Assembly: GCF_009392895.1 (NCBI RefSeq)
Contig: NZ_CP045489.1
Location: 248,001 to 312,000 of the forward strand
DNA from: Natronorubrum aibiense
GTDB taxonomy: Archaea; Halobacteriota; Halobacteria; Halobacteriales; Natrialbaceae
Direction of reading: 5' to 3'
DNA length: 64,000 bases
Shown: one piece after another, positions 11,852 through 63,553 of the stretch
Layout: every line of letters begins with the position of its first letter
Position numbering within the stretch: the stretch's first letter is position 1
The notes under the pieces: generated by a model
What the model saw: only the letters and a program-made list of their open reading frames with translations
Databases searched by the model: none
What the model was told of the DNA's origin: nothing
Program-made: the position numbers and the translations under genes

Positions 11852-11854
11852 GGT

Positions 11855-13693: not shown

Positions 13694-13695
13694 TG

Positions 13696-17526: not shown

Positions 17527-19007
17527 GCAACCACCTCCTGTTCCTGGACGGCCGCCATGCCACAATCCCGGATGACATCCAGCATTGCAGCGATGTCCTC
17601 GAGCGTGGCGGTCGGGTTCAGCAGCGTAAACTTCAGACTGGTCACGCCCTCAACTTCCGTCCTGGCGACGACGGCGCTGCCGTCGTGGAGCAACCGCTCT
17701 CGGATATCCGCGTTCAACCGGCTGACTGCCTGCTTACTCATCGCCTCACGCGGCTGATAGCGGAAGACGACCGCGTTCAGCGTCGGTTCGTGCAACAGTT
17801 CGAAGTCGGTGGCATCCTCGATGAGTGATGTCGCATCGGAAGCCAACGCCACGGTCTCCTCGACAAGGTCCGACATTCCCTCACGACCGAGGGCACGGAA
17901 CGCGAGATAGGGTTTCAGCGCGTCGAATCGGCGTGTCGTCTGGACCGATTTCGCGACGAGGTTCGGAACGCCGGTTTCGTCGTGTTCCTCTGGGTTGAGG
18001 TAGGCGGCGTTACGCGCCATCCACTCGAAATCATCCCCGTCGCCGAGGAGAAACGCACCACAGCTGATGGGCTGGTAGAAGAGTTTGTGGAAGTCCACGG
18101 CGATGGAGTCGGCACGCTCGATGCCCTCGAGCAGGTCGTCGAAATCGGTCAACGCGAGGGCACCGCCGTACGCTGCATCGACGTGGTACCAGAGGTCGTG
18201 CTCGGCGGCCCGGTCGGCGAGTTCGTCCAACGGATCAATGCTGCCGAAGTCGGTCGTTCCGGCTGTCCCAAGCAGCGCGAAGGGAGCCGCATCGCTAGCA
18301 TCGAGCTCGGCGAGTATTTCGTCGAGTGCGTCGGAATCCATCCGGCGTTGCTCGTCGGTCGGAACGGCGACGACCGCGTCTTCGCCGAGTCCGAGGTGGT
18401 GAGCCGCCTGCTTGCCGGTAAAGTGGGCTTCCTCCGAGCAGAGGATGCGAAGCGACTCGGCCGCTGGCGGGAGTCCATCTGCTTGCACGTCACGGCCGAA
18501 CTGGCGACGACAGTATCGGTCGCGGGCTAACAGGAGAGCCTGGAAGTTCGACTGCGTCCCCCCACTCGTGAAGACGCCATCTGCGGCATCCGAAAGGTCG
18601 AACAGCTCACAGAGTGCGTCGACGAATTCCTGTTCGAGGATGGTGGCGGCGGGCGCCTGATCGAAGGAGTCGAGCGACTGGTTCGCCGCGGTGAGCATCG
18701 CCTCTGCGGCGAGCCCCGGAATCATCGGTGGACACTGGAGGTGAGCTGCGCACCGCGAGTTCGAGGTTCCAACTGAGTGGGCGAGAACCTTGGTGGCGAC
18801 TTCATCGATGGCAGTGCCCAGACCTATGCCGGTTTCGGGGATAACCGGATCTGCGAACTGCTCGGAGAGTGCTTCGGGTGACTGCCCCGAGTACGGGTTC
18901 TCGGCGATGGCGAGGCTATCCACAACGGCGTCGGTCGCTCGTTGTATGGCCTCACGATAGGCGGCAGTGCCCGCTTCAGAGTTAAGGAATAACTCATCTG
19001 CGCTCAT
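17523..19007 (-). CDS. ddc: L-2,4-diaminobutyrate decarboxylase (PLP)
   Basis: Group II PLP decarboxylase of 494 residues. Evidence is the PLP-stacking segment TSGGTQSNFQALLLARDRYC, HVDAAYGGALAL with the PLP-binding Asp, and the Schiff-base Lys in ADSIAVDFHKLFYQP. Next to dat, it should decarboxylate L-2,4-diaminobutyrate to 1,3-diaminopropane, the amine arm of schizokinen-type siderophores. Called bdb in some haloarchaea. It overlaps the dat stop as ATGA. Confidence 0.92.
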   Translation of the reverse strand: MSADELFLNSEAGTAAYREAIQRATDAVVDSLAIAENPYSGQSPEALSEQFADPVIPETGIGLGTAIDEVATKVLAHSVGTSNSRCAAHLQCPPMIPGLAAEAMLTAANQSLDSFDQAPAATILEQEFVDALCELFDLSDAADGVFTSGGTQSNFQALLLARDRYCRRQFGRDVQADGLPPAAESLRILCSEEAHFTGKQAAHHLGLGEDAVVAVPTDEQRRMDSDALDEILAELDASDAAPFALLGTAGTTDFGSIDPLDELADRAAEHDLWYHVDAAYGGALALTDFDDLLEGIERADSIAVDFHKLFYQPISCGAFLLGDGDDFEWMARNAAYLNPEEHDETGVPNLVAKSVQTTRRFDALKPYLAFRALGREGMSDLVEETVALASDATSLIEDATDFELLHEPTLNAVVFRYQPREAMSKQAVSRLNADIRERLLHDGSAVVARTEVEGVTSLKFTLLNPTATLEDIAAMLDVIRDCGMAAVQEQEVVA

Positions 19008-20377
19008 ACGGTCACCCCCGCCGGTTCTGCTTCAACGTCGGCAGCGGCGGCGACAGCCTCCTTGAAGATGGTCGCGATCTCGTCGATCTGTGTCTTCGAC
19101 ACGACGAGTGGTGGGAGGAACCGGGCCGTCGCACTTTCGCGGCCGCCGAGTTCGATGATAAGCCCGCGGTCGAAACACTCAGCCTGGACTGCCGCCGCAA
19201 AATCACTGTCCGGAGCGTGAGGGCCTGCGCCTTGCCAGTCGGCATCCGGATCGACGAACTCGACGCCCAGCATCAGCCCGCGACCCCGGACGTCTCCGAC
19301 TGCACTGAATCGCTCGGCCATCGTCTCGAGGTGGTCTCGCAAACGTGCGCCCATGTCGGCGGCGTGATCGTCGAGGTCATTCTCGAGCACGTAATCGATA
19401 GTGGCTTCCCCGGCTGCCATCGCAAGCTGGTTCCCGCGGAACGTTCCGGCGTGTGCTCCAGGCTCCCAAACATCGAGCTCTTCGTCGTAGACGACGACGG
19501 CGAGCGGGAGACCGCCACCGATGGCCTTCGAGAGTGTGATCACGTCGGGCATTATTCCGGCATGCTCGAAGGCGTAGATCTCGCCTGTCCGTCCCAGACC
19601 CGCCTGAATCTCATCCAAAATGAGAGGAATGTCTCGTTCACGCGTAATTCGACGGATCTCTCGGAGCCACGCATCGGGCGCAGGAATCGCACCGCCTTCA
19701 CCCTGGACGGGCTCGAGAATCATCCCGGCGGGGTCGGTGATTCCACCTTCGCCGTCATCGAGGAGGTTTTCGACATAGTCGCTCCCGATTCGATGTCCGT
19801 CCTTGCCGCCGACGCCGAACGGGCATCGATAGTCGTACGGGAAGGGGAGATGATGGACCTCGTTCATCAGCCCCGAAATGGGTTCTTTGGCACCAGTGTC
19901 ACCCATCAGCGAGAGAGCTCCGCTCGTCATCCCGTGATAGGCACCCTGGAACCCGAGGATACTCCGGTTTCCTGTGGCCGTTTTGACAAGCTTTAGCGCA
20001 GCTTCGACGGCGTCCGTTCCGGCCGGGCTACAGAACTGGACCTTCGCTCGCTCGCTGAACTCGTCGGGCAGGCTCTCGAACAGCGAGTCGACGAACCGTT
20101 CTTTCGCGGGCGTAGAGATGTCGAGCGTGTGGAGCGGTCGCCCGGTCTCGAGCGTGCGCTCCATCGCTTCGACGACCCGCGGGTGATTGTGACCAAGCGC
20201 GAGTGTCCCTGCCCCGGCGAGACAATCGTAATACTCGTTCCCATCCATGTCCGTCACGGTGATGCCCTGCGCTTCACGGATGGCCAAGGAGAGATGCCGA
20301 GGGTACGTCCGCGCGTTCGATTCTCGTCCAGCCTGCTGGGAGAGGATGGCGCTATTCCCCTGTTCGAGGTAGGTCAC
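19004..20377 (-). CDS. dat: L-2,4-diaminobutyrate:2-oxoglutarate aminotransferase
   Basis: Class III aminotransferase of 457 residues that makes L-2,4-diaminobutyrate from aspartate semialdehyde and glutamate. The core has NEYYDCLAGAGTLALGHNHP, the PLP site LILDEIQAGLGRTGEIYAFE and the Lys in ITLSKAIGGGLPLAV. It is the first gene of the iron-regulated siderophore operon. No good ATG exists. A GTG at 20377 (VTYLEQGN) is preceded by GGAGGTG with seven bases of spacing, so I chose it over the upstream TTG. It corresponds to rhbA by gene order. Confidence 0.92.
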   Translation of the reverse strand: MTYLEQGNSAILSQQAGRESNARTYPRHLSLAIREAQGITVTDMDGNEYYDCLAGAGTLALGHNHPRVVEAMERTLETGRPLHTLDISTPAKERFVDSLFESLPDEFSERAKVQFCSPAGTDAVEAALKLVKTATGNRSILGFQGAYHGMTSGALSLMGDTGAKEPISGLMNEVHHLPFPYDYRCPFGVGGKDGHRIGSDYVENLLDDGEGGITDPAGMILEPVQGEGGAIPAPDAWLREIRRITRERDIPLILDEIQAGLGRTGEIYAFEHAGIMPDVITLSKAIGGGLPLAVVVYDEELDVWEPGAHAGTFRGNQLAMAAGEATIDYVLENDLDDHAADMGARLRDHLETMAERFSAVGDVRGRGLMLGVEFVDPDADWQGAGPHAPDSDFAAAVQAECFDRGLIIELGGRESATARFLPPLVVSKTQIDEIATIFKEAVAAAADVEAEPAGVTV

Positions 20378-20454
20378 CGTACGCCACCTCCGCACCAAGT
20401 CGAAGCTACTGCACGAGGAGTCTGTGCTCTTGTATTTGGTTTTCCCATATGAGT

Positions 20455-43163: not shown

Positions 43164-44225
43164 CTATGCTCGAATCGTCTGGCCGGGTAGTGCGCCAGTC
43201 ACTTCATTATCGCAAACGACGAACTCTCCGTTGACGAGAACATGGGGAATTCCCTTCGGATACCGTCGTGGGTTTTCGTAGTCGGCAGTAGTGGAGACGA
43301 GTCGCGGATCAAATACCACGAGATCGGCATCCATACCAGGTCGGATGAGTCCTTTATTCGAGAGACCCATGATTCGGGCGGGCAGTGACGTCATTTTCCG
43401 AACAACTTCTTCAAGGGAGAGAAGGCTTTCTTCACGAACGTACTTTTCCAGGATCTTCGGGAACGTACCGTAAACGCGCGGGTGGGGCTTTCCACTTCCG
43501 AATAAACCGTCAGTACCGACAGAAACGAGTTCATCTCGAACAATATGCTGAACCGATTCCTCACGTAGTTGGTGGAGTGTGATCGTTACTTGCAGGTCTT
43601 CTTCGATGAGGAGGTCACAAACTACGAAAACGGGATTGGAATCTCTTTCATTGGCTATTGATGCGATCGACCGACCAAGACAGTGTTCGTTGGTTTCGGA
43701 TTCGAGACTCGCGATTGCGATATTTTCCCAGCCGGTATACGGGCCCGGATTGTGCCAATTGTCGAGTCTCCAGTTTTCAATATCGGCCTTGATCTGCTGA
43801 CGCGTTTCGCTGTCTCGAAGTAACTCGACCGTTTCTGTCGAATCGCCGGTTTTCACCCACGGTGGGAGAAGTGCTTGGAGCATGGTGCTCCCCGCAGTAT
43901 AGGGATACTGATCGGCGGTGTAATCGATTCCCCGGTCACGTGCATATCGCATGAGGTCAGTCGCCCGTTCGGCAGTTTCGTACAGTGGTGGGCCAGTAAC
44001 TTTGAAATGCGAATGATGAAGCGGAATACCAAGCTCCGCTCCAATATCCATGAACTCGTCGAATGCCTCCCATATCTCGAACCGTTCATTCCGAATATGT
44101 GCGACGTATGGACGTCGATAAGGAACAAGTCGCTCTCCTAATGCCCGGATTTCCTCAGTCGTCGCGTTAAACTGCGGAGAGTACACCAACCCCGTCGAGA
44201 GACCAACTGCACCATCCTCGAGTGA
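43164..44225 (-). pseudogene. N-acyl-D-amino-acid deacylase, N-terminally truncated and fused to transposase DNA
   Basis: The frame encodes the C-terminal two thirds (about 353 residues) of an amidohydrolase of the D-aminoacylase family: GAVGLSTGLVYSPQF, YVAHIRNERFEIWEAFDEFM, HHSHFKVTG, DYTADQYPYTAGSTML, SVGTDGLFGSGKPHPRVYGT and GLIRPGMDADLVVFDP. The first metal-binding HxD segment and about 170 N-terminal residues are missing. They are replaced, in the same open frame, by a transposase N-terminus (44226-44600). Loss of the first metal ligands makes activity unlikely. Confidence 0.8.
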
Positions 44226-44600
44226 TTCACGAAGGAACCATTCTGTAAGATCGGCCGTAGCCGTCAAGTAGAGCCGTATATGGAGGGTTTTGTTTGCCTC
44301 TGGTTCAACCGCGGTGTACAGCCAATACCAATAGTCGTTGATTTGAACCACCGTTTTGTCGAGCGCAATGTGATTCGGATCAATGTCAGCTGCCGGCTGT
44401 AGATCGCATTTGTGAACCCAATCGTGGATCGATTTTCGACTGTGTTCGACACCAAACTTCTCCAATTTTCGAACAGTATTTGAAAGAGAGAATCCAGCAA
44501 AATGGAGTCGAATACCGCGTTCCATTAGCTGCGGCGGTGTCCGCTCTCGCTCCACAAAACTCAAATCGATCCAGTCGCTACATCCACTGAGGCGGTCGAT
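44226..44600 (-). pseudogene. IS6-family (haloarchaeal) transposase N-terminal half
   Basis: The frame reads IDRLSGCSDWIDLSFVERER, IRLHFAGFSLSNTVRKLEKF, HDWVHKCDLQPAADIDPNHI and DKTVVQINDYWYWLYTAVEP, the HTH and first-Asp region of an IS6-like transposase. It ends after LTEWFLRE and continues directly into deacylase sequence. The expected start reads ATGCCCAAATC where ATGCCCCAAATC would be in frame, suggesting a one-base loss. The open frame runs on upstream to a stop at 44775-44777. Confidence 0.78.
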
Positions 44601-44788
44601 TTGGGCATAGAGCACCACAAAATCGTACTCCTCACTTTTTACGCTTAACGAAACAGCGTCTCGTAACTCGAGAACGACGCCTCCGGCAAAAAACTCGACC
44701 GAAGCACACGTTGCCAACAGTGATTCAACGTACGCGCCGGTAACTGGAACGGCCAAATGGCCGAAGGCTGTCGGTTATCGGCAGCAAT

Positions 44789-50625: not shown

Positions 50626-52028
50626 TATTCGTCTTTAGCTAAGACTCACACCTCGGTTGCGTAGCGGTAGCGAGCGTCTCTTGTAACACTGGCCGTTGCT
50701 GGTGGATCTTCTGTGCGTCGTCGATCAGTCGGTCGAGCAGCGGTGGCGGCGAGTAGCCGAGATATTCGCTGAGTTCGTGGAGGATGAGCTAGGCGTGCGA
50801 CCGAAAGGTCGCCGCCCAGCGTTCTGGCGGAAACACGATCTCATCGTCCGCCTGTTCGGTGACCAGATCGAGCAACTCACGACTAACAAGCAGCGACAGC
50901 AACGCCGCGTACAACAGAATTTCGACGACATGCTCCTTCGTCGTATCGAACTCGTCCAGTTCGTACTGCGTCTTCAACTCCCGAAACAGCAACTCCACCT
51001 CCCACCGACAGCGATAGATCGTCCTTAGATCCGATGGCAGAAATTCTTCTCTCGGTAGATTCGTGATATACAGGTGGTAGTCGTCGGCGTCCTCTTTGCG
51101 GACGCCGACGACGCGAAACTGCTTCCTATCGCGTGATTGCGTTCCTCCGTACGGTCTTCGGTCGAACTCGGCTTCGACTTCCACGTCGATGTACTCGCGG
51201 TGCAGGTTATCCACAACATCGTGGATCTGCTCACCATCCAAGGGAATGGCGCGCCCGCGCCATTCCCGTAATTCCTCTGTTATCACCGGGTTTGCACTCT
51301 CTTTCAGCCGGCTCACGAAGTAGCCGCCGTTCTCGTCGATCAACGCGAAGCGGCGGTACTTGAAGTAGGCTCGATCGAACAGAACGAGTCGATCTTCGAG
51401 CCACGATCCTGTGTTAAACAGCGTGCTGTCGTGCGTTTTCTCGTCAGTCACGTCGAGCCGTTCTATCGTCTGCTCGGTGGCATTGTGGAGCAGGTGGAGC
51501 TTCGCTCCAGCCTGCTCCTCTTTCCGGGCTTCGTACTCTTTGGAGAGAAACTCGTGCAACCGCAGGACGGTTCCATCAGCGATCATCACGTCCCTGAAGC
51601 GGTCGATATCGGCGTCAACAGTGTCAGGGACAGCGACCTCGTCGAGGCCGTGCTCGACGAGGTCACGGAAGTACTCTGCGAGAGACGGCGTCAACCGGTG
51701 ATAGAAGCCGCCGGGAGAGATCGTTTCGTCGGCTGTCGAGTTGTAGCTGCGTCTGAAGCCAGCGAGTGTTCGGCTTTCGCCTGCGGCGAAGCCGAACACG
51801 AATGCCCAGACGAAGGCGGGGATCTGGAGCTTGCGGTCACGTTCGACCACGCCGAGTTCCTCGGCGTGCTCTTCAAGGAACTCGGAGGGAAACAGTGTAG
51901 TGAGCCGACGCATAATCCGAGATGAGGAGGCATTGGTGGACACAGCCGTTGCCTCCTCATTTCTCTCGAAAAGATGCCTCGATAAGCCGCCGCTGTCACG
52001 TGGTTCTTCGCTTAGCTAAAGACGGATA
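50626..52028 (-). mobile_element. ISH8 (IS4-family) insertion sequence
   Basis: About 1.4 kb, the usual ISH8 size, bounded by inverted repeats that share CGTCTTTAGCTAAG (50630-50643 and complement at 52011-52024). It carries one transposase gene with a nonsense mutation. Flanking bases do not show an obvious target duplication. Confidence 0.85.
50639..51913 (-). pseudogene. ISH8 transposase with amber stop near the C-terminus
   Basis: IS4-type transposase. It starts MRRLTTLFPSEFLEEHAEEL. DDE residues are in MIADGTVLRLHEF, VLFDRAYFKYRRF and the Y-(2)-R-(3)-E-(6)-K block YRCRWEVELLFRELK. After PERWAATFRSHA a TAG at 50789-50791 replaces what is usually a Gln codon. The frame then continues intact for 49 more codons (LILHELSEYLGYSPPPLLDR and on) to a natural stop at 50639. 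Truncation removes only the tail, so partial function is possible. Confidence 0.88.
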
Positions 52029-52251
52029 TCCAGCGCAGTAGACCACCACACCTCGCCACTCGAGACGGAGCTGCCAACCCCCGGTAAGCCGACACCGGAC
52101 TTTCGAACACGAAGACGTCTTTCGGAGAGACGGCCACTGCGCTTTCTCGAGATGGCTCTCGAGTCGTCAGTCTACTGCTCTACCAGCGTTCCCGACATCG
52201 ACCAGCAGCGCGAGTCGAATCGCCCGACGATGCCACCGAAACCAGAATCAA

Positions 52252-53118
52252 ATGAGCGCGAACACAGACTGTCCCGACCCTGACGCACAGACACTCCAAA
52301 CACTTGCCGACGAACTCGAGCGCCTTCACGAACGCGTCACAACCCTTGAAAACGAACTCTCCCAAAAGGACAACCGCATAGGTAACCTCGAGGCCGAACT
52401 TGAGGAAGCCCACACCGAAAACAAGGCTCTCGAAGCACGGCTCGAGGACCTAGAGCAATCACGGACACCGATCGAAGCACGACTAGACGCCCACGAGAAG
52501 AAACTCAACGCCAACAAAGATCGCGTCGGTGAACTCCAAGCACGAGAACTCGAGAAAGGCGCACACCTCCTGGAGGAACACATCGATAATGGGGAGATCG
52601 ACGTTGTGGATAGCCGCCTCGAGCGCATCCAGAAAGACGACGGTGAGAACTACTTCCGATTACCCGAGAGTGACGACCCGCTCGAACGTGGTGGCGACAT
52701 CTCCCTCTCGTATGGGGATCTGCTTCCACTCCAGCAGCTCGCGAAGATGGACGAGGATATGCTCCGGGCGACAACATCGTCGCTTCCGTCACGGCTCGCT
52801 GCAAAGCTCTGGAAGGCACGTACCGATCCGGCAGTTGGAGACAACCCCTGGCGGAAGGGGAGTACAAGCGTTCGAGAGTACGTCACCGCCGGCGATATGA
52901 AACACTGGATCCGACGGCAGGAGAAGGGCATCAGTGACGACTACGCGAAGAAGTTGGTCTCGCGAACGATCGATGCGTTGCTCGATCTCTCAAAGAGCAG
53001 GCTGGCAGTCAAAAAGCAGACACAGCGCAAGAACGGCCTCGAGTACACAGAACGACGTGTCTTGTTGATGGACGATGTCGACATTCCCGGTGAGATGGCC
53101 GGTTCCGGAGACACCTGA
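52252..53118 (+). CDS. Coiled-coil protein of haloarchaeal plasmids/viruses
   Basis: Protein of 288 residues. Residues about 15-105 form a long heptad-rich coiled coil (LADELERLHERVTTLENELS and further). The C-terminal part has a helical segment (VREYVTAGDMKHWIRRQEKG, AKKLVSRTIDALLDLSKSRL) that could be a winged-helix-like DNA-binding unit. I recall similar architecture in haloarchaeal plasmid proteins of unknown role. It opens the plasmid-type segment. A partitioning or replication-accessory role is a guess. Confidence 0.7.
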   Translation: MSANTDCPDPDAQTLQTLADELERLHERVTTLENELSQKDNRIGNLEAELEEAHTENKALEARLEDLEQSRTPIEARLDAHEKKLNANKDRVGELQARELEKGAHLLEEHIDNGEIDVVDSRLERIQKDDGENYFRLPESDDPLERGGDISLSYGDLLPLQQLAKMDEDMLRATTSSLPSRLAAKLWKARTDPAVGDNPWRKGSTSVREYVTAGDMKHWIRRQEKGISDDYAKKLVSRTIDALLDLSKSRLAVKKQTQRKNGLEYTERRVLLMDDVDIPGEMAGSGDT

Positions 53119-53469
53119 CGTCGACGGTTGCGGGTGTCGCCCGACTACCCACAACCCCTGAGAAGGGTATCACTCTATCCGCCCACCTAATATCCAGCAC
53201 AAGAGCGGTTGTATGCAGTGTACCGTTAGTCTGTAGTACGTCATTTGATCGGTCGTTGTCGGTCTTACTCCCATGACTTCCCTGTAGCTGTGTCTGAAGA
53301 CGCCAGCTGTCTCCGGAAACCTCTCATCTCGAGAATGCCGTCTGGATTTTCTGATCGGTAGGTTTCCACCAGTATTTCTTTGGGAGAACTAATCAACCAC
53401 GGGAGGAACGCATATCACCGATAGAATCAAGATGCTCTTCTAGTTTTGTACTGGAGACGAGGTGCTCTG
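53119..53469. other. Intergenic stretch without a gene
   Basis: No coding sequence or strong repeat seen. The end of the stretch holds the likely promoter and a GAGGTG ribosome-binding sequence for the TRAM gene. Confidence 0.45.
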
Positions 53470-53877
53470 ATGGAAGTTCCAGACAATCTGCTCTGCCTAT
53501 ACAATGCAGAACTCGAAGAACAGGACGACAGCTACGTAATCGAAGTACCTGCTCGTGAGGTTTCTACCAACCAGATCGCTTCAGGCGAAGTATGTCGAGC
53601 TGCAGTACTCCAAAGGGAGACAAGAGACACAAACAACCACTCGACAGAATCAGATCGACAGAACACGGCACAGTCTGCGCCAGAGCCACCTGTTGAAGAG
53701 GGTGAGCGGCGAACTGTGACGATTGAAGACGTCGGTGATCAAGGTGATGGAATAGCCCGCGTTGAACGGGGCTATGTCATCATTGTGCCGGATACCAAAC
53801 TAGGTGACCAAGTAGTGATCGAAATCGAGAACGTCCGGCAGAACGTAGCTTTTGCTGACGTTGTCGGACAGGAGTAA
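53470..53877 (+). CDS. TRAM-domain protein
   Basis: Protein of 135 residues. The C-terminal 60 residues form a TRAM domain (RRTVTIEDVGDQGDGIARVE, RGYVIIVPDTKLGDQVVIEI, FADVVG). Small archaeal TRAM proteins act as RNA chaperones, rather like bacterial cold-shock proteins. The N-terminal half (NLLCLYNAELEEQDDSYVIE) also occurs in haloarchaeal relatives. The ATG at 53470 follows GAGGTG, so I preferred it to an earlier start. Confidence 0.85.
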   Translation: MEVPDNLLCLYNAELEEQDDSYVIEVPAREVSTNQIASGEVCRAAVLQRETRDTNNHSTESDRQNTAQSAPEPPVEEGERRTVTIEDVGDQGDGIARVERGYVIIVPDTKLGDQVVIEIENVRQNVAFADVVGQE

Positions 53878-53921
53878 CAGCAATCGTAGGCGAACTAACA
53901 CCGGTCAAGAGATCTGGGTTG

Positions 53922-54248
53922 CTACTGTTCGGGGACGCCGTACTCGATGTGAATGGTTGGTGTGCTCGGAGACTCTCCACTTTCCACGCCGTTCCAATCG
54001 GCAACGTGGATATTTGCTAACTCGCCAGAGAACTGGAAGCGTTGAACACCAACATCGATCGAACCCTCAACAGCGTTCTTCGTAACGACAGTCGCCTCTC
54101 CTACAGGATTGTCGCTCATCATTTCGATGTCACCGGCAACAGAGAACTCGAAGTTAGACGGAACGCCGCGTCCGACGACAGTAATGCAGTTCGGAAGTTG
54201 CTCCGTGTTTGACTCACTGGATGCGGCTTTACCGTTGATGCGCGTCAT
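53922..54248 (-). CDS. Conserved haloarchaeal protein of unknown function
   Basis: Protein of 108 residues beginning MTRINGKAASSESN, with a likely all-beta fold (LPNCITVVGRGVPSNFEFSV, GDIEMMSDNPVGEATVVT, SIDVGVQRFQFSGELANIHV). I recall similar short proteins on haloarchaeal plasmids, but no function is known. It converges with the TRAM gene and is divergent from the PadR-like gene. Confidence 0.65.
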   Translation of the reverse strand: MTRINGKAASSESNTEQLPNCITVVGRGVPSNFEFSVAGDIEMMSDNPVGEATVVTKNAVEGSIDVGVQRFQFSGELANIHVADWNGVESGESPSTPTIHIEYGVPEQ

Positions 54249-54437
54249 ACCCCGATAATTCGAACACCTCAGTATAGGCCTTCCTATCTGGAAAAAGATA
54301 TGATAGAGTGAATTTGTGGAAACAAGGAATTGAGACAGGTATGAGACCTACGTTTAGGATGTGTTTGGATAACTATAACATCTATGAGTTGCATATACAA
54401 GCAGGGTAACAAATACGCTGTTGATCGTGAACAGTGT

Positions 54438-54713
54438 ATGCACGATTTGACCGGCTTCCAACGCGACCTCTTGTATGTGATCGCAGGCGCTGACCAGCCG
54501 TCCGGCCAAGACGTCAAAGAGGAAGTCGAGCAGTACTACAGTACCGAGATCAATCATGGCCGACTGTATCCAAATCTAGATACGCTTGTCAACAAGGAAC
54601 TAGTCGAAAAAGGGCAGTTAGACCGCCGGACAAACTATTACGCAATCACAGAGGCCGGGCGTGAGCAGATCCAACAACGGCGTGAATGGGAAGAACAGTA
54701 CGTCGAATTTTAA
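54438..54713 (+). CDS. PadR-like winged-helix regulator
   Basis: Protein of 91 residues: DLTGFQRDLLYVIAGADQPS, the winged-helix core GRLYPNLDTLVNKELVEKGQ, and DRRTNYYAITEAGREQIQQR. The ATG at 54438 is chosen because the paralogue at 61581-61871 starts at the same residue (M-x-DLTGFQRDLL). Proteins of this kind on haloarchaeal viruses and plasmids (phiH-repressor-like) act as compact repressors. Targets unknown. Confidence 0.85.
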   Translation: MHDLTGFQRDLLYVIAGADQPSGQDVKEEVEQYYSTEINHGRLYPNLDTLVNKELVEKGQLDRRTNYYAITEAGREQIQQRREWEEQYVEF

Positions 54714-54761
54714 GCGTGGTTCGACGTGGGAGCATGACGAGGGATAATCTGATATCATGTG

Positions 54762-55022
54762 CTATATCGCACCAAACTCTTCGTCGGAGTCAGGAAGGTA
54801 CTCCATGATACTCCGATGGGCACCGAATTCGCTGATAATCGTCTGTAGTGCGTCGACGACAGTCGCGATGTCCCGGTTGAGTTCATATTCCCAGTACGAC
54901 GTACCCGAGATTGAATAGTTCTTGATAAAACCCCACTCAAGTATGAGTAAAGCCCGTATTTGACGGGTACTGTTAAGCGGATCACTGCCGAAATGACCAT
55001 ACAGAACTGCAATGGCTGGCAT
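54762..55022 (-). CDS. Possible small protein of unknown function
   Basis: Frame of 86 residues: PAIAVLYGHFGSDPLNSTRQ ... YWEYELNRDIATVVDALQTI ... MEYLPDSDEEFGAI. Composition is haloarchaeal, with an acidic C-terminus. The start overlaps the divergent gene at 55012 by 11 nt, which is unusual. It is not recognised and could be spurious. Confidence 0.35.
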   Translation of the reverse strand: MPAIAVLYGHFGSDPLNSTRQIRALLILEWGFIKNYSISGTSYWEYELNRDIATVVDALQTIISEFGAHRSIMEYLPDSDEEFGAI

Positions 55023-55284
55023 CACAGATCCACGACCACCACTCCCGGAGTGGATTCGCGAGTGCTACGACTTACTGTGCTCCCATGCAGATCCACCTGA
55101 TAATGGAAAAGCCGCTGTTCAGGTGATCGAGTACGATGATGCCACCGACGTGCTGCTCTCTGATTCAGAGTTAGCACTCGAGCAACGGGATGTCGAGTAC
55201 GCGCTTACACGGCTCCTCGAGCGAGGCTACTTCTACGAAGTCGAGGGCGAACTTCGGGTCACCTCCCCGGAAGAGCAGTGTTAA
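55012..55284 (+). CDS. Small conserved haloarchaeal plasmid protein (90 aa)
   Basis: Encodes LPEWIRECYDLLCSHADPPD then LLSDSELALEQRDVEYALTR and LLERGYFYEVEGELRVT. The C-terminal half looks like a small winged helix (two helices and a beta hairpin). I recall similar proteins in haloarchaeal plasmids, function unknown. Confidence 0.65.
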   Translation: MAGITDPRPPLPEWIRECYDLLCSHADPPDNGKAAVQVIEYDDATDVLLSDSELALEQRDVEYALTRLLERGYFYEVEGELRVTSPEEQC

Positions 55285-55422
55285 CGACTCTTCAAAGGGC
55301 TGTCCCGTATATCGACAGCTCAGCTCACTATATTGATCTTGAGCCACTGCACTGTCCTCGATTCGGTCCGACATCTTACCTCCCGATTACCGGAATTGTC
55401 CAGAAGTGATGGCCACGTTCTG

Positions 55423-57120
55423 CTAGAGCCCCACCCCGTACTCTTCGAACACAGACTCGAATCCCTCGTCGACGATCTGCTGGACGAGTTCAGCGAACGA
55501 ACTTCGATTCCCAGGATCCTCAACGAGCGACCGAAACGTGCTCTCGAAGTGATGCCCATGAGAAGGCCGATCCCGACTCGAGGTCTCATGCGCCGCCTCA
55601 TGCAGCATCACCAAATACAGGTCGTGCATCCAGACCGCACGCTGACGACTCGTCACAGCCGAGTCGGTGACCACGATGTACGTCCTGCCATCGGTCCAGG
55701 CATCGGCACTCGCCTCGCCGTAGTACACATCTCGTTCAATCCCAAGCTCCTTTGCGAGCACTCGAGCGAAGCGAAGATACCGCCGCTGATCAGCGTTCAA
55801 CTGCGATTCGTCCTCGATGCGATGATAGCCCGTCCAGACACCTTCTGACTCTGCTTGCTCGCCAACATCAAATGTCTTTGGCATCGTTATCGATGTGTCC
55901 TCGTCGGTGGCAAGGTCGCGAAGCCGCTGGGTTGCCGCATCACTCGTATCGAGGACGACGTAACCACGTTCGACGAGTTTGTCCGCGCCTTTCTGGGCTC
56001 CGTCGACCCACCCAATTTTCGGGGCCGCCTGGATCTCTTCGAGGCTGATGCGGGACTCCGTTGCCAGCTGGAATAGCTTGCGATCTGCCCACTGCTCGTC
56101 CGATGACTCGGACGCCATCGCTTCGATCATCACTTCCCGACTCTCGGCAGTCAGCCGATCGTCCGAGACCTCAGCATATAGATCGTCACGTGCCTGCTCG
56201 AGTGCGCTGTCGATCCGCTGCCAGCGGTCACAGCCGGATTGGATGTCGTTACGCGCAAAGTTCAGCGTCAGATTCCCTTTCGAGACGACCACACCACCGA
56301 GTCCGTACTCGCGTTTCGTCGTCACGTACAGACCGTTGCTGTAGATATCGAGTCCCTCGTGGGGTGTGTACTCGAGTGCGAGGATCGCATCCTCAGTTTC
56401 GCGTGTGAGCGACGGGTGTGGCGAGTCGGCCACTGCTTCGAGTGGATCACCCTTATCGACTGGCTCGCCGTTGATCACGACCGAGACGCCCGTTCGGGAC
56501 TGCACGTACGCGAAGCGCTTGCGAAGATCACGAACGTAGCGCCGCCAGCGGTAGCTGTCCGGATCCGGAACCTCATCTTCGTAGTGATCGATCTTGACGA
56601 GCATTCCCTCGAGATGATGCTCAGCGTCCACGAGCTGGCCATCGCGACCGCTGACGTCTGCCCATGGTCTAGAATCGCGTCGATCTCGGTAGTCAAAGCA
56701 CAGTGCGGTGTCGTGACTCCAGATGCGAACGGCGCCTTTCGCGATGATCGCACCCTTTCCAATTCCCCACTCTCCGATTGTCTCGTCGTCAGAGCGCTGC
56801 TTGCTTCCTGCGCCGAGTACTGAGAGGTTGCGCCGCCCTTCGGTTGACTCGAGGTCGACGCCAGCACCATCATCGAGGATGATCGACCGCTCAGGTGAGA
56901 TACTGACTAGGACGCGGGTTGACCCTGGGCTGTCGATGCCATTTTGGACAGCTTCACGAATTGCGTCTGTGAGATCCGCCATCTGATCCTCAATGAGGTA
57001 CGTTGCGACCCGCTCGTCAGCGGTCATCGTCACGGTCTCGTCAGTCGATAGCTGGTTGGCCGGCCTCGAGTCAGTCGTTTCGTTCGTAGCGAACTCTGCT
57101 AACGTCGGATGTTCTGTCAT
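55423..57120 (-). CDS. GHKL-ATPase / HExxH metallopeptidase-like fusion protein
   Basis: Protein of 565 residues. The N-terminal third is an Hsp90/MutL-type ATPase: N-box DAIREAVQNGIDS (Glu about 56, Asn about 60), G1 box ILDDGAGVD (about 82-88) and lid box IGEWGIGKGA (about 115-124). The middle is a MutL-like transducer (LEYTPHEGLDIYSNGLYVTT). The C-terminus has VMLHEAAHETSS (HEAAH about 507-511) followed by HGHHF, a zincin-type Zn site. ATG 57120 is preferred to the GTG nine bases earlier. It is divergent from a winged-helix gene. The role may be in plasmid maintenance or defence, and neither is proven. Confidence 0.82.
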   Translation of the reverse strand: MTEHPTLAEFATNETTDSRPANQLSTDETVTMTADERVATYLIEDQMADLTDAIREAVQNGIDSPGSTRVLVSISPERSIILDDGAGVDLESTEGRRNLSVLGAGSKQRSDDETIGEWGIGKGAIIAKGAVRIWSHDTALCFDYRDRRDSRPWADVSGRDGQLVDAEHHLEGMLVKIDHYEDEVPDPDSYRWRRYVRDLRKRFAYVQSRTGVSVVINGEPVDKGDPLEAVADSPHPSLTRETEDAILALEYTPHEGLDIYSNGLYVTTKREYGLGGVVVSKGNLTLNFARNDIQSGCDRWQRIDSALEQARDDLYAEVSDDRLTAESREVMIEAMASESSDEQWADRKLFQLATESRISLEEIQAAPKIGWVDGAQKGADKLVERGYVVLDTSDAATQRLRDLATDEDTSITMPKTFDVGEQAESEGVWTGYHRIEDESQLNADQRRYLRFARVLAKELGIERDVYYGEASADAWTDGRTYIVVTDSAVTSRQRAVWMHDLYLVMLHEAAHETSSRDRPSHGHHFESTFRSLVEDPGNRSSFAELVQQIVDEGFESVFEEYGVGL

Positions 57121-57291
57121 GGTGTCCACCCCTGTGGCACCACAAAAACCGAACAGAGCAACTCAGGCGCTTTCGTCTAGTCGCGGTTGCTGCTGGAATT
57201 GGTGACTCGATTCAGACAATGCAATCTTGCTTTGTCCTGTCAGTCTTTCCTGAAAAGGCTTATTGCAATCTGCGTGCAATTCGCTACTAAG

Positions 57292-57807
57292 ATGTCCACA
57301 AAAGAAGCAGATTGGAATACGCCTCTCGATACTGGAGGTGAGGCATTTGAACTCCTTAGGAACGCCCGGAAAGCGTGGATCTATACCTATATCCGTCACA
57401 ACGCGGAAACTACGACCGACGACGTTGTCGATTCCCTTGAGATCCCACAGCGGACTGCCTACGACTATATCAACGACCTCGAGTCTGCAGGATTCATTGA
57501 ACAGTCGAACGAGGGACGGCCCGCACGATATACTGCCCGTGAAGTCGATCTTCAACTTGTTCAGGATGATGTCCAACGGCAGATCACGCCGGCATTGATT
57601 GAGGCGATTGCACGCCGAGAGAAAGATGGGGATATGGATACGTACATTGAACGCCACGGTTTAGACGGGCTTGCGGTCGCTCTCGAGTATGCTCGGGAAT
57701 ATGTTGATGGATCCGTAACCCATCGAATTATGGCTCGAGAGCAGGACCTCTCGCCGTTAGAGGCAGCTATCATTCTGGATGCACTTTCCCCAATTGTTGA
57801 AGAGTGA
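57292..57807 (+). CDS. Winged-helix regulator
   Basis: Protein of 171 residues. The winged helix spans about residues 20-75 (HNAETTTDDVVDSLEIPQRT, AYDYINDLESAGFIEQSNEG, RPARYTAREVDL). A helical C-terminal domain follows (ITPALIEAIARREKDGDMDT, HRIMAREQDLSPLEAAIILD). It resembles the antitoxin-like regulators coded at 59785-60318. The start ATG is 57292. It is divergent from the GHKL/zincin gene, 171 nt away, so it may regulate that gene. Confidence 0.78.
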   Translation: MSTKEADWNTPLDTGGEAFELLRNARKAWIYTYIRHNAETTTDDVVDSLEIPQRTAYDYINDLESAGFIEQSNEGRPARYTAREVDLQLVQDDVQRQITPALIEAIARREKDGDMDTYIERHGLDGLAVALEYAREYVDGSVTHRIMAREQDLSPLEAAIILDALSPIVEE

Positions 57808-57884
57808 GTCGGATGGACACCGACAGAGAAATCGCTTTTCTTGACTCGTTAATATCCATTTATCCGTGGCGGTGAGGGTGCCAA

Positions 57885-59348
57885 GCCCCCGTCCTCAAGG
57901 AGCGACCGGAGGGGGCGAGTAGGGCGGGATAGTTCATCAGCGGTCGAGGTGGATACCCCGAGGCTTGACCTCGGGAGGAAGCCGACACTTGTGAAGCTGT
58001 TCACGTGCTACCACAGTGCCAACTCCCCCACGCTGCTAAACGCTAACCATTAAATAATACCACACTATCTTATGAAGTATGGCAGAGGTGGTCAGGAACA
58101 TCCAAGTCAAACTCAACATCCCCGAGTCACGACACTCGGATGTTGACCAGACGTTCGAGCAGTTCCGTCAAGCTGCCCAACACGTTGCAGACTACGGCTG
58201 GGACGACGGCCCAGACCATCTCGTTAAAGCCAAAAACAAACTCCACAAAGCCACATACACCGAAGTCCGCGAGAAAACCAATCTCCAATCCAGCCTCGTC
58301 CAATCCGCCAGAAACCTCGCTGCGACCGCCCTCGGGAACTGCAAAGACTTGCTCAACGACGATAAGAACACGAGCAAACCCGAGTTCCGAGGCACGGTCA
58401 TCGTGTACAACGGACGCACCATCACGTACAACGACGACCATGTGACACTCGCCACCACAGGCGACCGCGTGACAGCCGAGTACGTCCTCCCACACGACGA
58501 CGAAGGCACGCTGTTTGAGGACTACTGGGACGACGAGGAGTGGAAGAAAAAAGAGGCCACACTCCACAAGCGAGATGGCGAGTACTATCTCCACGTCGCA
58601 GTCGAGAAAGAAGTTGAACCTATTTCTAGCGACGAGAAGACCGAGAACGGAGTGGTTCTCGGTGTTGACCTCAACGTGGACGGATACCTCGCCGTCACCA
58701 GTACTGGAGCGTTCCTCGGGAACGCGAATGAGTTGAATCACAAGCGCGACGAGTACGAGCGTCGTCGTGGAAACCTGCAACAGACGGGCACGCGCTCAGC
58801 GCACCTCACCATCCAATCAATCGGGGGCAGGTTTGCCGAGTGGAGTCGTCATCGCCTACACGCCGTGTCGAACGGCATCATCCGAGAGGCCGTTGAAAAC
58901 GACTGTACGCACATCGCGTTCGAGCGGTTGAAGTACATTTGGACGCGTCTCTCGAACGGTTCCAAGTTCCAGCAGTGGGCGTTCCGCGAGATTCAACGAC
59001 AGGTCGAGTACAAGGCCGAAGAACACGGCATCGAAGTGGATACCGTGACCCCACAGTACACGTCGCAACGATGTAGTCACGGTGAGTGTGGATTTACGCA
59101 CGAAGAAAACCGAGACGGTGATGAGTTCGAGTGCTTGAAGTGCGGTAAGGAGTTGCATGCGGATTACAACGCTGCGCGAAATGTGGCGTGGCGTCTTGTC
59201 CAGAACTGGCTCAAGTCTGGTGCTGGACGGGCTACCAGTCAACTAGCCCTCAAATCAGGAACGGTGAACGCGAACGGCGATTTCACGCCTCCGCTTAACG
59301 GCGGCAGAGTGAGAGTTCACTGACAAGCCCCGGCCCTTGTGGTCGGGG
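57885..59348 (+). mobile_element. IS1341-type element: solitary tnpB with structured ends
   Basis: The left end has stems GCCCCC/GGGGGC (57885-57890 with 57911-57916) and a perfect hairpin CCCGAGG-CTTGA-CCTCGGG (57957-57975). The right end has a hairpin with CCCCG (59328-59332) paired to CGGGG (59344-59348). No tnpA is present, so the element depends on TnpA in trans, and its ends differ from those of the 27-29 kb element. Exact borders are uncertain by some tens of bases. Confidence 0.7.
58079..59323 (+). CDS. tnpB: TnpB-family RNA-guided nuclease (IS1341 type)
   Basis: Protein of 414 residues with a complete RuvC set: Asp in VVLGVDLNVDGYLAV, Glu in THIAFERLKYIWTR and Asp in LHADYNAARNVAW. 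The zinc ribbon uses CSHGEC and CLKC. The N-terminal bundle is typical (VRNIQVKLNIPESRHSDVDQ). Unlike the other TnpB of this window it keeps the RuvC-II Glu. An omega-RNA would be read across the tnpB 3' end and right-end hairpin. Intact and probably active as a nuclease. Confidence 0.92.
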   Translation: MAEVVRNIQVKLNIPESRHSDVDQTFEQFRQAAQHVADYGWDDGPDHLVKAKNKLHKATYTEVREKTNLQSSLVQSARNLAATALGNCKDLLNDDKNTSKPEFRGTVIVYNGRTITYNDDHVTLATTGDRVTAEYVLPHDDEGTLFEDYWDDEEWKKKEATLHKRDGEYYLHVAVEKEVEPISSDEKTENGVVLGVDLNVDGYLAVTSTGAFLGNANELNHKRDEYERRRGNLQQTGTRSAHLTIQSIGGRFAEWSRHRLHAVSNGIIREAVENDCTHIAFERLKYIWTRLSNGSKFQQWAFREIQRQVEYKAEEHGIEVDTVTPQYTSQRCSHGECGFTHEENRDGDEFECLKCGKELHADYNAARNVAWRLVQNWLKSGAGRATSQLALKSGTVNANGDFTPPLNGGRVRVH

Positions 59349-59356
59349 TTGTTGAC

Positions 59357-59788
59357 CTAGGCATGTAACGTCTGGACACGATCTTCGATCCACTCCAGCA
59401 CGGCGAAGAGGACATCCAAATGATGTTCACTCTTGAGTGAGGACTGCTCTACATTTGCGGACGCGTCTGGTGGCGGATGGAAATGCTCTCGAGGTGCCTC
59501 TGGTTTTGGGTGTCGATCCCATCGACATTGCCAGGTCTCATCTTCATGACTCTCGAGATTGTGAACTGTGTAGTCGCCTCCGACAAACCACCGGATGTCG
59601 ATCCGAGTCTCACGCACTTCCGAGGGATACTGTGTTCTGTCCAACTGTAGCTCAAGAACACGCGGAGATATTGCATCAGGCCGGAACTCCCACGTTGAAA
59701 CAAGTGGATGCGTTGCTGCACGCTGTGCGAGTACTTCAAGCGTCGGAACATCAAGGGGACCGCTTGGTGTTTCGTCTCGCCCCGTCAC
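59357..59788 (-). CDS. Probable toxin of a TA pair (TumE/DUF6516-like)
   Basis: Protein of 143 residues: LVSTWEFRPDAISPRVLELQ, VRETRIDIRWFVGGDYTVHN, WQCRWDRHPKP and REHFHPPPDA. The W-x-R-H and HFHPPPDA segments resemble the TumE-like family paired with HTH antitoxins in haloarchaea. It starts with GTG at 59788, overlapping the upstream stop (GTGA), so translation is coupled to the regulator gene. Toxicity is inferred from family and layout only. Confidence 0.6.
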   Translation of the reverse strand: MTGRDETPSGPLDVPTLEVLAQRAATHPLVSTWEFRPDAISPRVLELQLDRTQYPSEVRETRIDIRWFVGGDYTVHNLESHEDETWQCRWDRHPKPEAPREHFHPPPDASANVEQSSLKSEHHLDVLFAVLEWIEDRVQTLHA

Positions 59789-60318
59789 GTATTTGATTGG
59801 GCTCGACCATTATTTGACGACTCGGCCCGTTGAACGGCACGTTTCAAGATCATAATATCTTGACGAATCGTCCGCCATTTTGTGAGGTCGTCCCATCGGT
59901 CATGAAGCGCTTCGTGACCTTCGGTAGGATCATCAGAGATGACGACAGCATCCGGATCTGGGACCCCATACGTTTCCTGAAGGTCCTGGTCTGCGTCAAT
60001 GAGTTCTGACAAACGTGAGCGAAGCTCACCTGCACTGTGCTCGCGTGCAAGCGTTTCGACACGCTTCCACTGAAAGTACGACGGATTACGTTGATACTGA
60101 GCGGGGCGGTTTCCCGTTCGTTCTGCAATCCCCATCTCAACAAGTTGCTCGAGTGCCTGACGAGCACCGGTCTCAGAACAGCGAGCCCACTCTGCGAACT
60201 GTTGTGCAGAAACAGGATCGGTAGTGCCGACAAGAACGTCGTAGACACGCTGGAACGTCGTCCGATCCGAATCCCACTGTCTTGACGCATCGTTTGGTGG
60301 GTCTGGTCGTTTTGTCAT
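59785..60318 (-). CDS. HTH protein, probable antitoxin of the adjacent pair
   Basis: Protein of 177 residues. The winged helix TDPVSAQQFAEWARCSETGA, RQALEQLVEMGIAERTGNRP occupies about residues 32-75. A helical C-terminal part includes LSELIDADQDLQETYGVPDP and WRTIRQDIMILKRAVQRAES. It resembles the DUF7342 family of haloarchaeal HTH proteins. It precedes and overlaps the TumE-like gene, the usual order for an autoregulating antitoxin. The ATG at 60318 is clear. Confidence 0.68.
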   Translation of the reverse strand: MTKRPDPPNDASRQWDSDRTTFQRVYDVLVGTTDPVSAQQFAEWARCSETGARQALEQLVEMGIAERTGNRPAQYQRNPSYFQWKRVETLAREHSAGELRSRLSELIDADQDLQETYGVPDPDAVVISDDPTEGHEALHDRWDDLTKWRTIRQDIMILKRAVQRAESSNNGRAQSNT

Positions 60319-60393
60319 AATTCCTTCTTCGAGAACACTGCTAATATATCTTTCCTAAAGCACAGATATATGATCTCAATATGCGAGTTCTCT

Positions 60394-61332
60394 TCAGTTT
60401 GTTCCGGCCATCACCTCGTCGGCGACGTCGATGATATCCTGAGAAGTCGAACTAATCCGCTCGAGTTGATCGAGGACCGTCTCCGGTTCGTCCCCCTCCC
60501 ACGCGGCGAGGTAGAACGCTGACCCACTCGTGTCCAGCCCGAAATACCGACCGACGATGTAGGCAACGGCCTCGGCCTCGAGTTCACGCTTTGACCGTTC
60601 GTCTTCAGTATCAATACCACCGTGCAGCAGTGCGTGCGCGTACTCGTGAACGAGTGTGACGGCGAGATCAGCCTCGTTTTCACGATCGCGGACTTCCACG
60701 AGTGGCTGCTGCTCTAGGCGGTACTGACAGACGCCCTTGGCGCTGCCGTGAGACCACTTTCGAGGAGACACGACCTCGACAGCTACCTCGAGTACGGACG
60801 CCGCCTCGAGGAGTGCTGGGACCAATTCGCCGACGTTGCCGTTCGATTCGGTCTCGAGTTCCGGAAGTGGTTCGCCTTCTGTCTGCGATATATCGAAGAC
60901 TGGTGCTGGTCGAAAGCCGACGAGTCCCTTGTTCCACTCGGCAGACTCAGTGTCGTCATACTCACAGTCGCTGCGTTCGTGGTACGACGGTGAGTTCCCA
61001 CATTCAGGACACTGTTTCGCAATGATGGGTGCCCAGATCCAGATTGCTGTTTCACCCTCATTCACGTGCCGATCGAACTCGTTCTGCCACGTTCGGTAGC
61101 CGGCAACGCGCGTTGCGTGCGGACACTGAAGTTTGATCAACAGCGTGTTTCGGTGCGAGTAATCATGGAAGCGACTCTGGACATCCAACCACTGTTTGAA
61201 TTGCTCGCTCGAGACGGCGGTATCGACCTCATTGACGAGGTCCTGAATCCATGTTTTGATCGTACTGTGCATCTCGTCGTGCCGGGTGTCCGAATCGTCG
61301 AACGTCTCCCGGGTGCTGCTGCTCGTAGCCAT
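60394..61332 (-). CDS. ArdC-like ssDNA-binding / ImmA-IrrE-type metallopeptidase
   Basis: Protein of 312 residues. The N-terminal part (SSEQFKQWLDVQSRFHDYSH, RNTLLIKLQCPHATRVAGYR) matches the ArdC N-terminal domain, and a Cys pair CPECGNSP follows. The C-terminal part has the zinc-peptidase motif VTLVHEYAHALLHGG and a downstream Glu in KRELEAEAVAYIVGRYFGL. ArdC homologues protect incoming plasmid DNA from restriction in bacteria. Peptidases of this kind also cleave repressors. The start is set at ATG 61332 (MATSSST). Its presence fits a mobile replicon. Confidence 0.85.
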   Translation of the reverse strand: MATSSSTRETFDDSDTRHDEMHSTIKTWIQDLVNEVDTAVSSEQFKQWLDVQSRFHDYSHRNTLLIKLQCPHATRVAGYRTWQNEFDRHVNEGETAIWIWAPIIAKQCPECGNSPSYHERSDCEYDDTESAEWNKGLVGFRPAPVFDISQTEGEPLPELETESNGNVGELVPALLEAASVLEVAVEVVSPRKWSHGSAKGVCQYRLEQQPLVEVRDRENEADLAVTLVHEYAHALLHGGIDTEDERSKRELEAEAVAYIVGRYFGLDTSGSAFYLAAWEGDEPETVLDQLERISSTSQDIIDVADEVMAGTN

Positions 61333-61580
61333 GTTCAATCACTGCTTCTCGAGTCAAATCGAATCGAACCGAACTCGAGAAGACCTCCGCCCCTCTGGGG
61401 GTCTCAAAAATACGCCAGACTCGAGCAGTTGTAAGCTCGTTGGGCAGCGGATGTCGAAATTCAGAGCGAGCATGGCAACTGGTGCTGACTTACTGGCTGT
61501 GAAAATGTCGGGTAAGACAGCACGGAGACGGCTTTCGGGCTCGAGTGATCGCTTGGAAAATCTGCTTGACGGTATTTGAG

Positions 61581-62584: not shown

Positions 62585-63553
62585 ATGCCATTCAGCGTCA
62601 GTTGGCACACGCTTCTCGAGCATCTTGATGAGTTGCCGGCGGACGCGACACTGATCACACCGTTGTCGCACTCTCGCATCCATATCACAGATGTTCAGGA
62701 ACACCGTGTCATCGCCCGATTTGACGAGTCCACCGAGAAGCGTCCGCTCCAACGTGAGCAGTTCGAGACACTCTACCATCAGATACAGACCGCCCACGAT
62801 GGGTTCAATCTCGACCGGCTCCCGCCAGATGCCGACCCGTATCCAGCGGTGTTGAGTGTCCATCCTCGGTTCGAGATTGACGAAGACGCGGGTGTGATCG
62901 CCGAGACAGACGGGTCGACGACGACCCAACTGGCCGACACAGCACACGAACCTGATGACGATGACCGAACCGAACCTGATGGTCTGGATATCTACTCGGA
63001 TAGCCTACTCCTGATCGATGCACTCGAGCGCCACGACGTAACTGACCTGCCTGAGTTGGAGACGGCCACACTGGTGAATCTCTATACGCTGCTGTCGGAT
63101 GTCCAGCGTGATGCTAACGACTTTCGACAGGAAGTCGCTGATGTGCTTCTCTCACGGCTTCATCACGACCGTCCTGTTGCCGGTCAGTACGGCTCCGTCC
63201 AGCGTACGAGTCGCCGTAACCGCTTGCTCAAAGATGACGAGTATGTCCTCTCGATGCTCGAGGCGGAAGGGATCGACCGCGAGCGCGTTATGAGCGTTGA
63301 CCGGCAGAAAGTCGACGAAGCACTCGAGGTGACGACGCTCACCGAGTCCGATGTCTACGAGATTGATGAGAGCGAATACGTTCGCAAAGCAGAAGTCGAC
63401 GACGACATCAAGGAGTCACGCCTCCAGGGCTTGAAGGATCGACTTGCCGCTAGTGAGGAGACAGAAACTGAGGAACTGCGACAGGAGATCGAAGCACTCG
63501 AAGACCGTATTGATGACCTCACAAGCTTCCGAGCGGGGACTGAAGTTCAATGA
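62585..63553 (+). CDS. Conserved haloarchaeal plasmid protein, unknown function
   Basis: Protein of 322 residues, very acidic. The N-terminal domain (SWHTLLEHLDELPADATLIT, VQEHRVIARFDESTEKRPLQ) is followed by a low-complexity acidic linker. A helical domain (LPELETATLVNLYTLLSDVQ) comes next, then a C-terminal coiled coil (EELRQEIEALEDRIDDLTSF). I do not recognise a named family. Coding quality is strong and it sits among plasmid genes. Confidence 0.7.
   Translation: MPFSVSWHTLLEHLDELPADATLITPLSHSRIHITDVQEHRVIARFDESTEKRPLQREQFETLYHQIQTAHDGFNLDRLPPDADPYPAVLSVHPRFEIDEDAGVIAETDGSTTTQLADTAHEPDDDDRTEPDGLDIYSDSLLLIDALERHDVTDLPELETATLVNLYTLLSDVQRDANDFRQEVADVLLSRLHHDRPVAGQYGSVQRTSRRNRLLKDDEYVLSMLEAEGIDRERVMSVDRQKVDEALEVTTLTESDVYEIDESEYVRKAEVDDDIKESRLQGLKDRLAASEETETEELRQEIEALEDRIDDLTSFRAGTEVQ

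Follow-up and report, generated by a model that had tools for sequence, protein, structure and literature searches.

GHKL proteins with an S5-like transducer work either as ATP-gated dimeric clamps (MutL, topoisomerase II) or as chaperones (Hsp90), and the N-terminal halves of MutL, Hsp90 and topoisomerase II dimerise upon ATP binding. Proteins crosslinked to DNA are cleaved by zincins of the SprT type, such as Spartan. An AAA+ ATPase and an HExxH zincin are joined in one chain in FtsH and, to our knowledge, the known ATP-dependent proteases use AAA+ motors. Among proteins of mobile elements, ArdC combines an ssDNA-binder with a Spartan-like zincin and is required in recipient cells against HsdRMS, and its protease glutamate is dispensable for antirestriction (PMC7213743). 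RIIA has been described as a GHKL ATPase with a variable C-terminal domain which acts in counter-defence (PMC7824862). In the open-access papers searched we found no description of a GHKL ATPase fused to a zincin, a scope that makes the novelty provisional, and nothing that brings GHKL together with plasmid, metalloprotease and conjugative. The one open-access paper that names both a SprT-like protein and a GHKL ATPase treats them as separate proteins, and a paper on leading-region anti-defence leaves ATPase, protease and Hsp90 unmentioned.

Such a fusion is encoded in the window, by which we mean the whole analysed stretch of 64,000 nucleotides. The gene lies on the minus strand at 55423..57129 and was established by ORF call, alignment, structure prediction and dN/dS. 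Its reading frame starts with a GTG at 57129, which gives 568 aa. Since relatives are annotated from an ATG three codons downstream (codon 4, here at 57120), the protein is probably 565 aa long. Together with a divergent HTH gene (57187-57807, plus strand) the ORF makes up the span 55423-57807. We divided the protein, in the 568-aa numbering, into a GHKL ATP-binding domain (residues ~36-185; 56575..57024), defined by alignment, the AlphaFold2 model and dN/dS, an S5-like transducer with the middle region (residues ~186-425; 55855..56574), defined by Hsp90/TRAP1/MutL/topo-II alignments and conservation, and a zincin domain (residues 426-568; 55426..55854), defined by profiles, structure and dN/dS. 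All three are on the minus strand.

The N box E59xxxN63xxD66, the G1 box D86xGxG90 and the lid G119...G124 are invariant in the alignment of archaeal and bacterial homologues. Residues E59, N63, D66, D86, G88, G90, G119 and G124 supply the ExxxNxxD N box, the DxGxG G1 box and the glycine-rich lid of a GHKL ATPase, and the middle domain has a conserved set of its own (K284, R293 and N294). In the zincin domain of the window protein we recognised an AWTDG strand motif, the series H510ExxH514, which reads HEAAH, the third ligand H524, and F528. The series H510-E511-xx-H514...H524 is invariant in alignments A1 and A3, kept in 18 of the 19 rows of alignment A2, and the site is retained in 34 of 38 members overall. 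We classify the protein both in the GHKL superfamily and among the zincins. The original prediction of complete N, G1 and lid boxes with a C-terminal zincin in one chain was borne out by alignment, structure prediction and the invariant catalytic sets; the ORF is real and the pairing is confirmed.

On its own, the window protein had no match in Pfam and none in the PDB by phmmer. It is too divergent by itself, and the family profile succeeded where the single sequence did not. Homologues pass Pfam HATPase_c_3, and the N-terminus of a 19-member profile matched PMS2/MutL (E 1e-6) and also HtpG/TRAP1, with MORC2 marginal. The sequence of the GHKL domain thereby places it nearer to MutL/PMS2 than to Hsp90. 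The C-terminus gave a weak, independent match to the SprT domain of Spartan (E 0.09, or E 0.018 with a C-terminal profile). The SprT-like family PF10263 matched 3 of the 19 members, the best at E 0.0018 and below the Pfam gathering score, and did not match the window zincin domain. Since the assignment is sub-threshold, we keep it as a resemblance and not as membership.

The AlphaFold2 model of the full-length protein had a pLDDT of 78.5, with low values in the lid region (104-126). Residues 36-425 of the model align with the ATPase halves of Hsp90, MutL and topoisomerase II (Z 14-16 for TRAP1, MutL and topo II), in agreement with a Bergerat fold followed by an S5-like transducer. The best overall PDB folds were full-length Hsp90/TRAP1. 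The C-terminal 143 residues, folded alone, adopted a zincin fold with a pLDDT of 90.9, so that the check proposed earlier for the zincin site came out in its favour. The structural neighbours of this domain were minigluzincins, Spartan, ERAP, HtpX and other HExxH enzymes, all with modest scores (Z at most 5.7; Foldseek/VIA), and in VIA Spartan aligned with Z 5.1 and rmsd 3.5 over 83 residues. Because the scores are modest, the family of the domain is unsettled beyond 'zincin'.

The median dN/dS of 24 intact haloarchaeal copies was 0.081 for the full length, with 0.050 for the GHKL domain and 0.086 for the zincin. None of the 15 scored catalytic or motif residues, which include H510, E511, H514 and H524, varied among these copies. 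The pattern of substitutions indicates purifying selection that is keeping both halves functional, and the dN/dS values together with the invariant residues argue that the pairing is not due to chance.

The closest described systems share parts of this architecture. MutL/PMS2 and Hsp90/TRAP1 have the same Bergerat ATP site and S5-like transducer, but carry an endonuclease or dimerisation C-terminus at the place of the zincin. SPRTN/SprT, the DNA-protein-crosslink protease, resembles our protein in the HExxH...H series, an HGxxF-type motif and the zincin fold. However, the metal-ligand spacing is shorter in our protein (a 5-residue gap in the alignment), an ATPase stands where Spartan has its own DNA-binding parts, and the score is below the Pfam SprT-like threshold. 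FtsH resembles it in having an ATPase and an HExxH zincin in one chain, but the ATPase here is GHKL and not AAA+; a GHKL-coupled zincin, if true, would be a new way of gating proteolysis. ArdC (IncW R388) and the polyvalent proteins are likewise mobile-element proteins in which a nucleic-acid module is joined to a Spartan-like zincin. A gene of the ArdC type often lies nearby and in the same direction; in the window it is upstream at 60394..61338 on the minus strand, has ArdC-N ssDNA-binding and M78-like zincin domains by Pfam and a PHROG anti-restriction match (3.6e-9), and it recurs at 23 loci. In place of the ArdC-N of ArdC our protein has the GHKL ATPase, and membership in the ArdC/polyvalent group was rejected, as neither Pfam ArdC-N nor MPTase-PolyVal matched. 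Phage T4 RIIA also has an N-terminal GHKL ATPase and a divergent C-terminus on mobile elements (PMC7824862). Membership was again rejected: neither the window protein nor other members matched a RIIA PHROG, and the hhalign alignment with T4 RIIA extends over no more than ~88 columns, all within the GHKL domain.

The plasmid-type contig of the window (431,477 bases) carries a second copy of the gene with 94% identity. In Natrialbaceae we found 33 loci at 81-95% identity, several of them on plasmids and often several per genome. Long copies numbered 37 in 19 of 125 genomes, several of which were multi-copy. Only these long matches were counted, because the family tally of 120/125 genomes consisted mostly of ~40-residue cross-matches to other GHKL proteins. 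In addition there are several fragmentary or disrupted copies, one of them split by an annotated IS5 element, as expected on plasmids. Distant members with the same architecture (22-37% identity) were present on plasmids of Halobaculum, Methylibium, Thioalkalivibrio, Bosea, Variovorax, Photobacterium and others. The Variovorax member, used as a query, matched 197 plasmid records, 174 of them with 80% or more of the query covered. Typing made 91 of the 197 conjugative and 41 mobilizable (about two thirds together). Some plasmids with the gene are typed non-mobilizable. Plasmid hosts include Pseudomonas, Xanthomonas and Acinetobacter, with clinical Pseudomonas and Acinetobacter records among them. 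The family is common on conjugative plasmids and shared by archaeal and bacterial conjugative elements.

IMG/VR virus-classified contigs of up to 479 kb also carry the gene. In the few flanking proteins scanned on these contigs there was no capsid hallmark and phage-type DNA-metabolism genes were present, so the 'virus' label rests mainly on the IMG/VR classification. The window protein had no tblastn match in phage genomes, and DNA comparison of window 52000-57999 with phages gave none. In the tree, an archaeal clade (8 rows) is separate from a bacterial clade (30 rows), and each contains plasmid and virus-classified members. As anticipated, the homologues are on mobile DNA, plasmids and virus-classified contigs, and none was found in a housekeeping context. 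The metal site is intact across the family except in a few phage-type members from large virus-classified contigs (L060, L077, L078 and L079, the last three forming a clade), where it is degenerate: these lost HExxH and kept the ATPase N box. Since HExxH is lost, these members may work without proteolysis. Records of the family are annotated only as 'ATP-binding protein' or sometimes 'DNA mismatch repair enzyme', and we found no curated family model in this analysis.

Two related arrangements were seen on the side. A different phage-type GHKL protein, similar to phrog_6077/8203 (L088:7977-9635), has an HExxH motif (HEYDH) near its C-terminus, which suggests a second, perhaps independent, pairing of GHKL and zincin. 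On the Acinetobacter plasmid pD4, a separate M48 metallopeptidase gene (L089:9045-9839) directly precedes the GHKL-zincin gene (L089:10001-12115).

The gene is linked to genes for DNA transfer. Of the 19 Natrialbaceae genomes that carry a long copy, 16 have TrbL/VirB6, against 44 of the 106 others (Fisher p 8e-4), a co-occurrence for which shared plasmid content and relatedness may be partly responsible. All 16 copies on the same contig as TrbL (14 contigs) are co-directional with it, at a median distance of 47 kb and usually 27-64 kb. The window contig encodes TrbL, a coupling-protein-like ATPase and a TraG-like AAA protein on the strand of the GHKL-zincin gene, at 34-43 kb from it, and a 94-kb Natribaculum plasmid has VirB4, TrbL_3 and HerA-type genes along with ArdC, HalOD1 and the GHKL-zincin gene. 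In bacteria, topoisomerase III is directly upstream in three plasmids of one lineage, and on another plasmid the gene directly precedes SSB. A further plasmid has SSB and topo III ahead of the gene and an LPD7 (relaxase-type) gene downstream. In a P. savastanoi plasmid the gene sits between VirB11 and VirD4-topoisomerase-SSB in one gene run. Several megaplasmid members had no conjugation or DNA-processing gene within the 10-12 kb flanks inspected. The linkage to T4SS and DNA-transfer genes across lineages places the family in the backbone of conjugative plasmids, and its consistency favours a role in establishment or transfer over one in defence or maintenance.

We therefore tentatively prefer, at somewhat below even confidence, to see the protein as the product of a core gene of conjugative plasmids and large virus-like elements, acting as a DNA-processing or establishment factor. 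This is the most economical reading of what is known about GHKL clamps and chaperones, of the roles of SprT and ArdC, and of the gene neighbours. In the predicted mechanism, the GHKL and transducer half would dimerise on ATP binding, and the ATP-bound dimer would close as a clamp around plasmid DNA or a DNA-bound protein. The closed clamp would bring the C-terminal SprT-like zincin onto a DNA-attached protein, which would be cleaved, and ATP hydrolysis would reopen the clamp. Likely substrates would be proteins lodged on plasmid DNA that is entering the cell or being replicated, such as relaxase or topoisomerase adducts and tightly bound host restriction or defence proteins. DNA clamping, proteolysis and these substrates are all predicted by analogy; that an ATP-driven conformational change controls the putative proteolysis, as originally proposed, is plausible. 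Spartan, to which the zincin is nearest by profile and which is also one of its structural matches, supports a role in establishment, as does the neighbour ArdC with its requirement in recipient cells (PMC7213743). Weighing against it are the window zincin without a Pfam match, the sub-threshold SprT similarity, the phage-type members without HExxH, the megaplasmid members without a conjugation gene nearby and the dispensable glutamate of ArdC (PMC7213743). Possible, though doubtful, is the more specific idea of a GHKL-gated protease common to conjugative plasmids and large viruses of bacteria and archaea, in which a MutL/Hsp90-type clamp and not an AAA+ ring would control the access of a SprT-like zincin on DNA and clear proteins, covalent adducts included, from mobile DNA. 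If active in transfer or establishment, the protein would have a part, so far overlooked, in the settling of plasmids in new hosts.

The main rival to an establishment role is a counter-defence effector, and the chief difference between the two is the substrate. By analogy with phage RIIA, the GHKL half would recognise or unfold a host defence protein and the zincin would degrade it. The viral structure library returned many RIIA proteins, the neighbouring ArdC belongs to an antirestriction family, and SprT-like and ArdC-like proteases of jumbo phages have been proposed to target host proteins (PMC7824862). However, the RIIA PHROG models remained without a match, the similarity to the T4 profile is confined to part of the GHKL domain, and such strong purifying selection is met more typically in backbone functions than in arms-race effectors. 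We consider this role somewhat unlikely.

Less probable still is an Hsp90-like chaperone or maturation protease at work in the donor, where it would serve to assemble the machinery by which the element itself is transferred or replicated and the zincin would trim a substrate. The Hsp90/TRAP1 folds obtained as best overall matches are in line with it, and so are the linked, co-directional T4SS genes and the position between VirB11 and VirD4 in P. savastanoi. On the other hand, the GHKL sequence is nearer to MutL/PMS2, and the family extends to virus-classified contigs and to plasmids that were typed non-mobilizable.

Polyvalent proteins contain zincin-like domains more often than any others, and autoprocessing has been proposed for them (PMC5512222). 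By analogy, the zincin could free the GHKL part once the protein has been transferred into the recipient, but no domain other than GHKL and zincin can be recognised, and in the short members the zincin lies at the very C-terminus, which makes this very unlikely.

The haloarchaeal surroundings bear on the remaining proposal, that of an undescribed plasmid system which includes the regulator. As predicted, a winged-helix gene stands opposite (57187..57807, plus strand, probable start ATG 57292), with DUF7437 and a TrmB-like HTH by Pfam, and the antirestriction and TA-like genes described as nearby are the ArdC-like gene and a DUF7342/TumE-like pair. The DUF7342 HTH protein (59785..60318, minus strand; Pfam; 5 loci) is cargo between ArdC and the GHKL-zincin gene, and it is overlapped by a 143-aa ORF (59357..59788, minus strand; 4 loci) with weak similarity to the TumE toxin (Pfam E 0.051, below cut-off). 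A survey for constant partners did not support the regulator as a component of the system: it is facultative, was rejected as a partner at ~8 of 38 haloarchaeal loci, and DUF7437 had no match beside distant archaeal members. The DUF7342/TumE-like pair was rejected too, being present at 4-5 loci only. The most constant Natrialbaceae neighbour (33 loci) is a small convergent ORF of 90 aa without a Pfam match (55012..55284, plus strand), which had no match next to the distant members. Across the 38 haloarchaeal loci neither a toxin nor an antitoxin recurs as a constant partner, and a toxin-antitoxin module was rejected because no adjacent partner is constant and the most constant neighbour is convergent. 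A search of the whole protein with PADLOC returned no defence family, only a weak TmtA match in the GHKL region (E 0.0013). The pairing, its conservation and the mobile location thus stood, whereas a defence, conflict, addiction or maintenance system built on the regulator, suggested by the divergent HTH and the nearby ArdC and TA-like genes, is the least probable of all, and defence and toxin-antitoxin roles are unsupported.

ArdC, HalOD1 (22 of 38 haloarchaeal loci) and the GHKL-zincin gene point the same way, and the stretch between the last two is a slot for variable cargo. What the window has there is the DUF7342/TumE-like pair, an IS605-type TnpB insertion (58079..59323, plus strand; Pfam Cas12f1-like_TNB) and DUF7437. 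In the slot (57200-60390) and its equivalents at L003-L028, an SF1 helicase (in up to 11 of 38 loci), the DUF7342/TumE-like pair, DUF7437, a PQQ-propeller and others alternate, and the slot is possibly a hotspot for accessory or defence genes. A DUF7342/TumE-like pair with 29-34% identity to that of the window also stands ahead of the second copy on the window contig (contig 147296-149008; L002, L101). Plasmid backbone neighbours are a phrog_35116 protein of unknown function (62585..63553, plus strand; PHROG; 16 loci) and, on the other side, a coiled-coil protein (52252..53118, plus strand; Pfam search; 13 loci).

Elsewhere in the window, at 43164-44756, what looks like a transposase N-terminus runs in frame into the C-terminus of an amidohydrolase/deacylase, and this ORF is probably a chimera made by insertion. 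Judged from translations only, 10655-20398 resembles a siderophore-biosynthesis cluster, with two IucA/IucC-like synthetases, a monooxygenase, an acetyltransferase, a decarboxylase, an aminotransferase and an MFS exporter.
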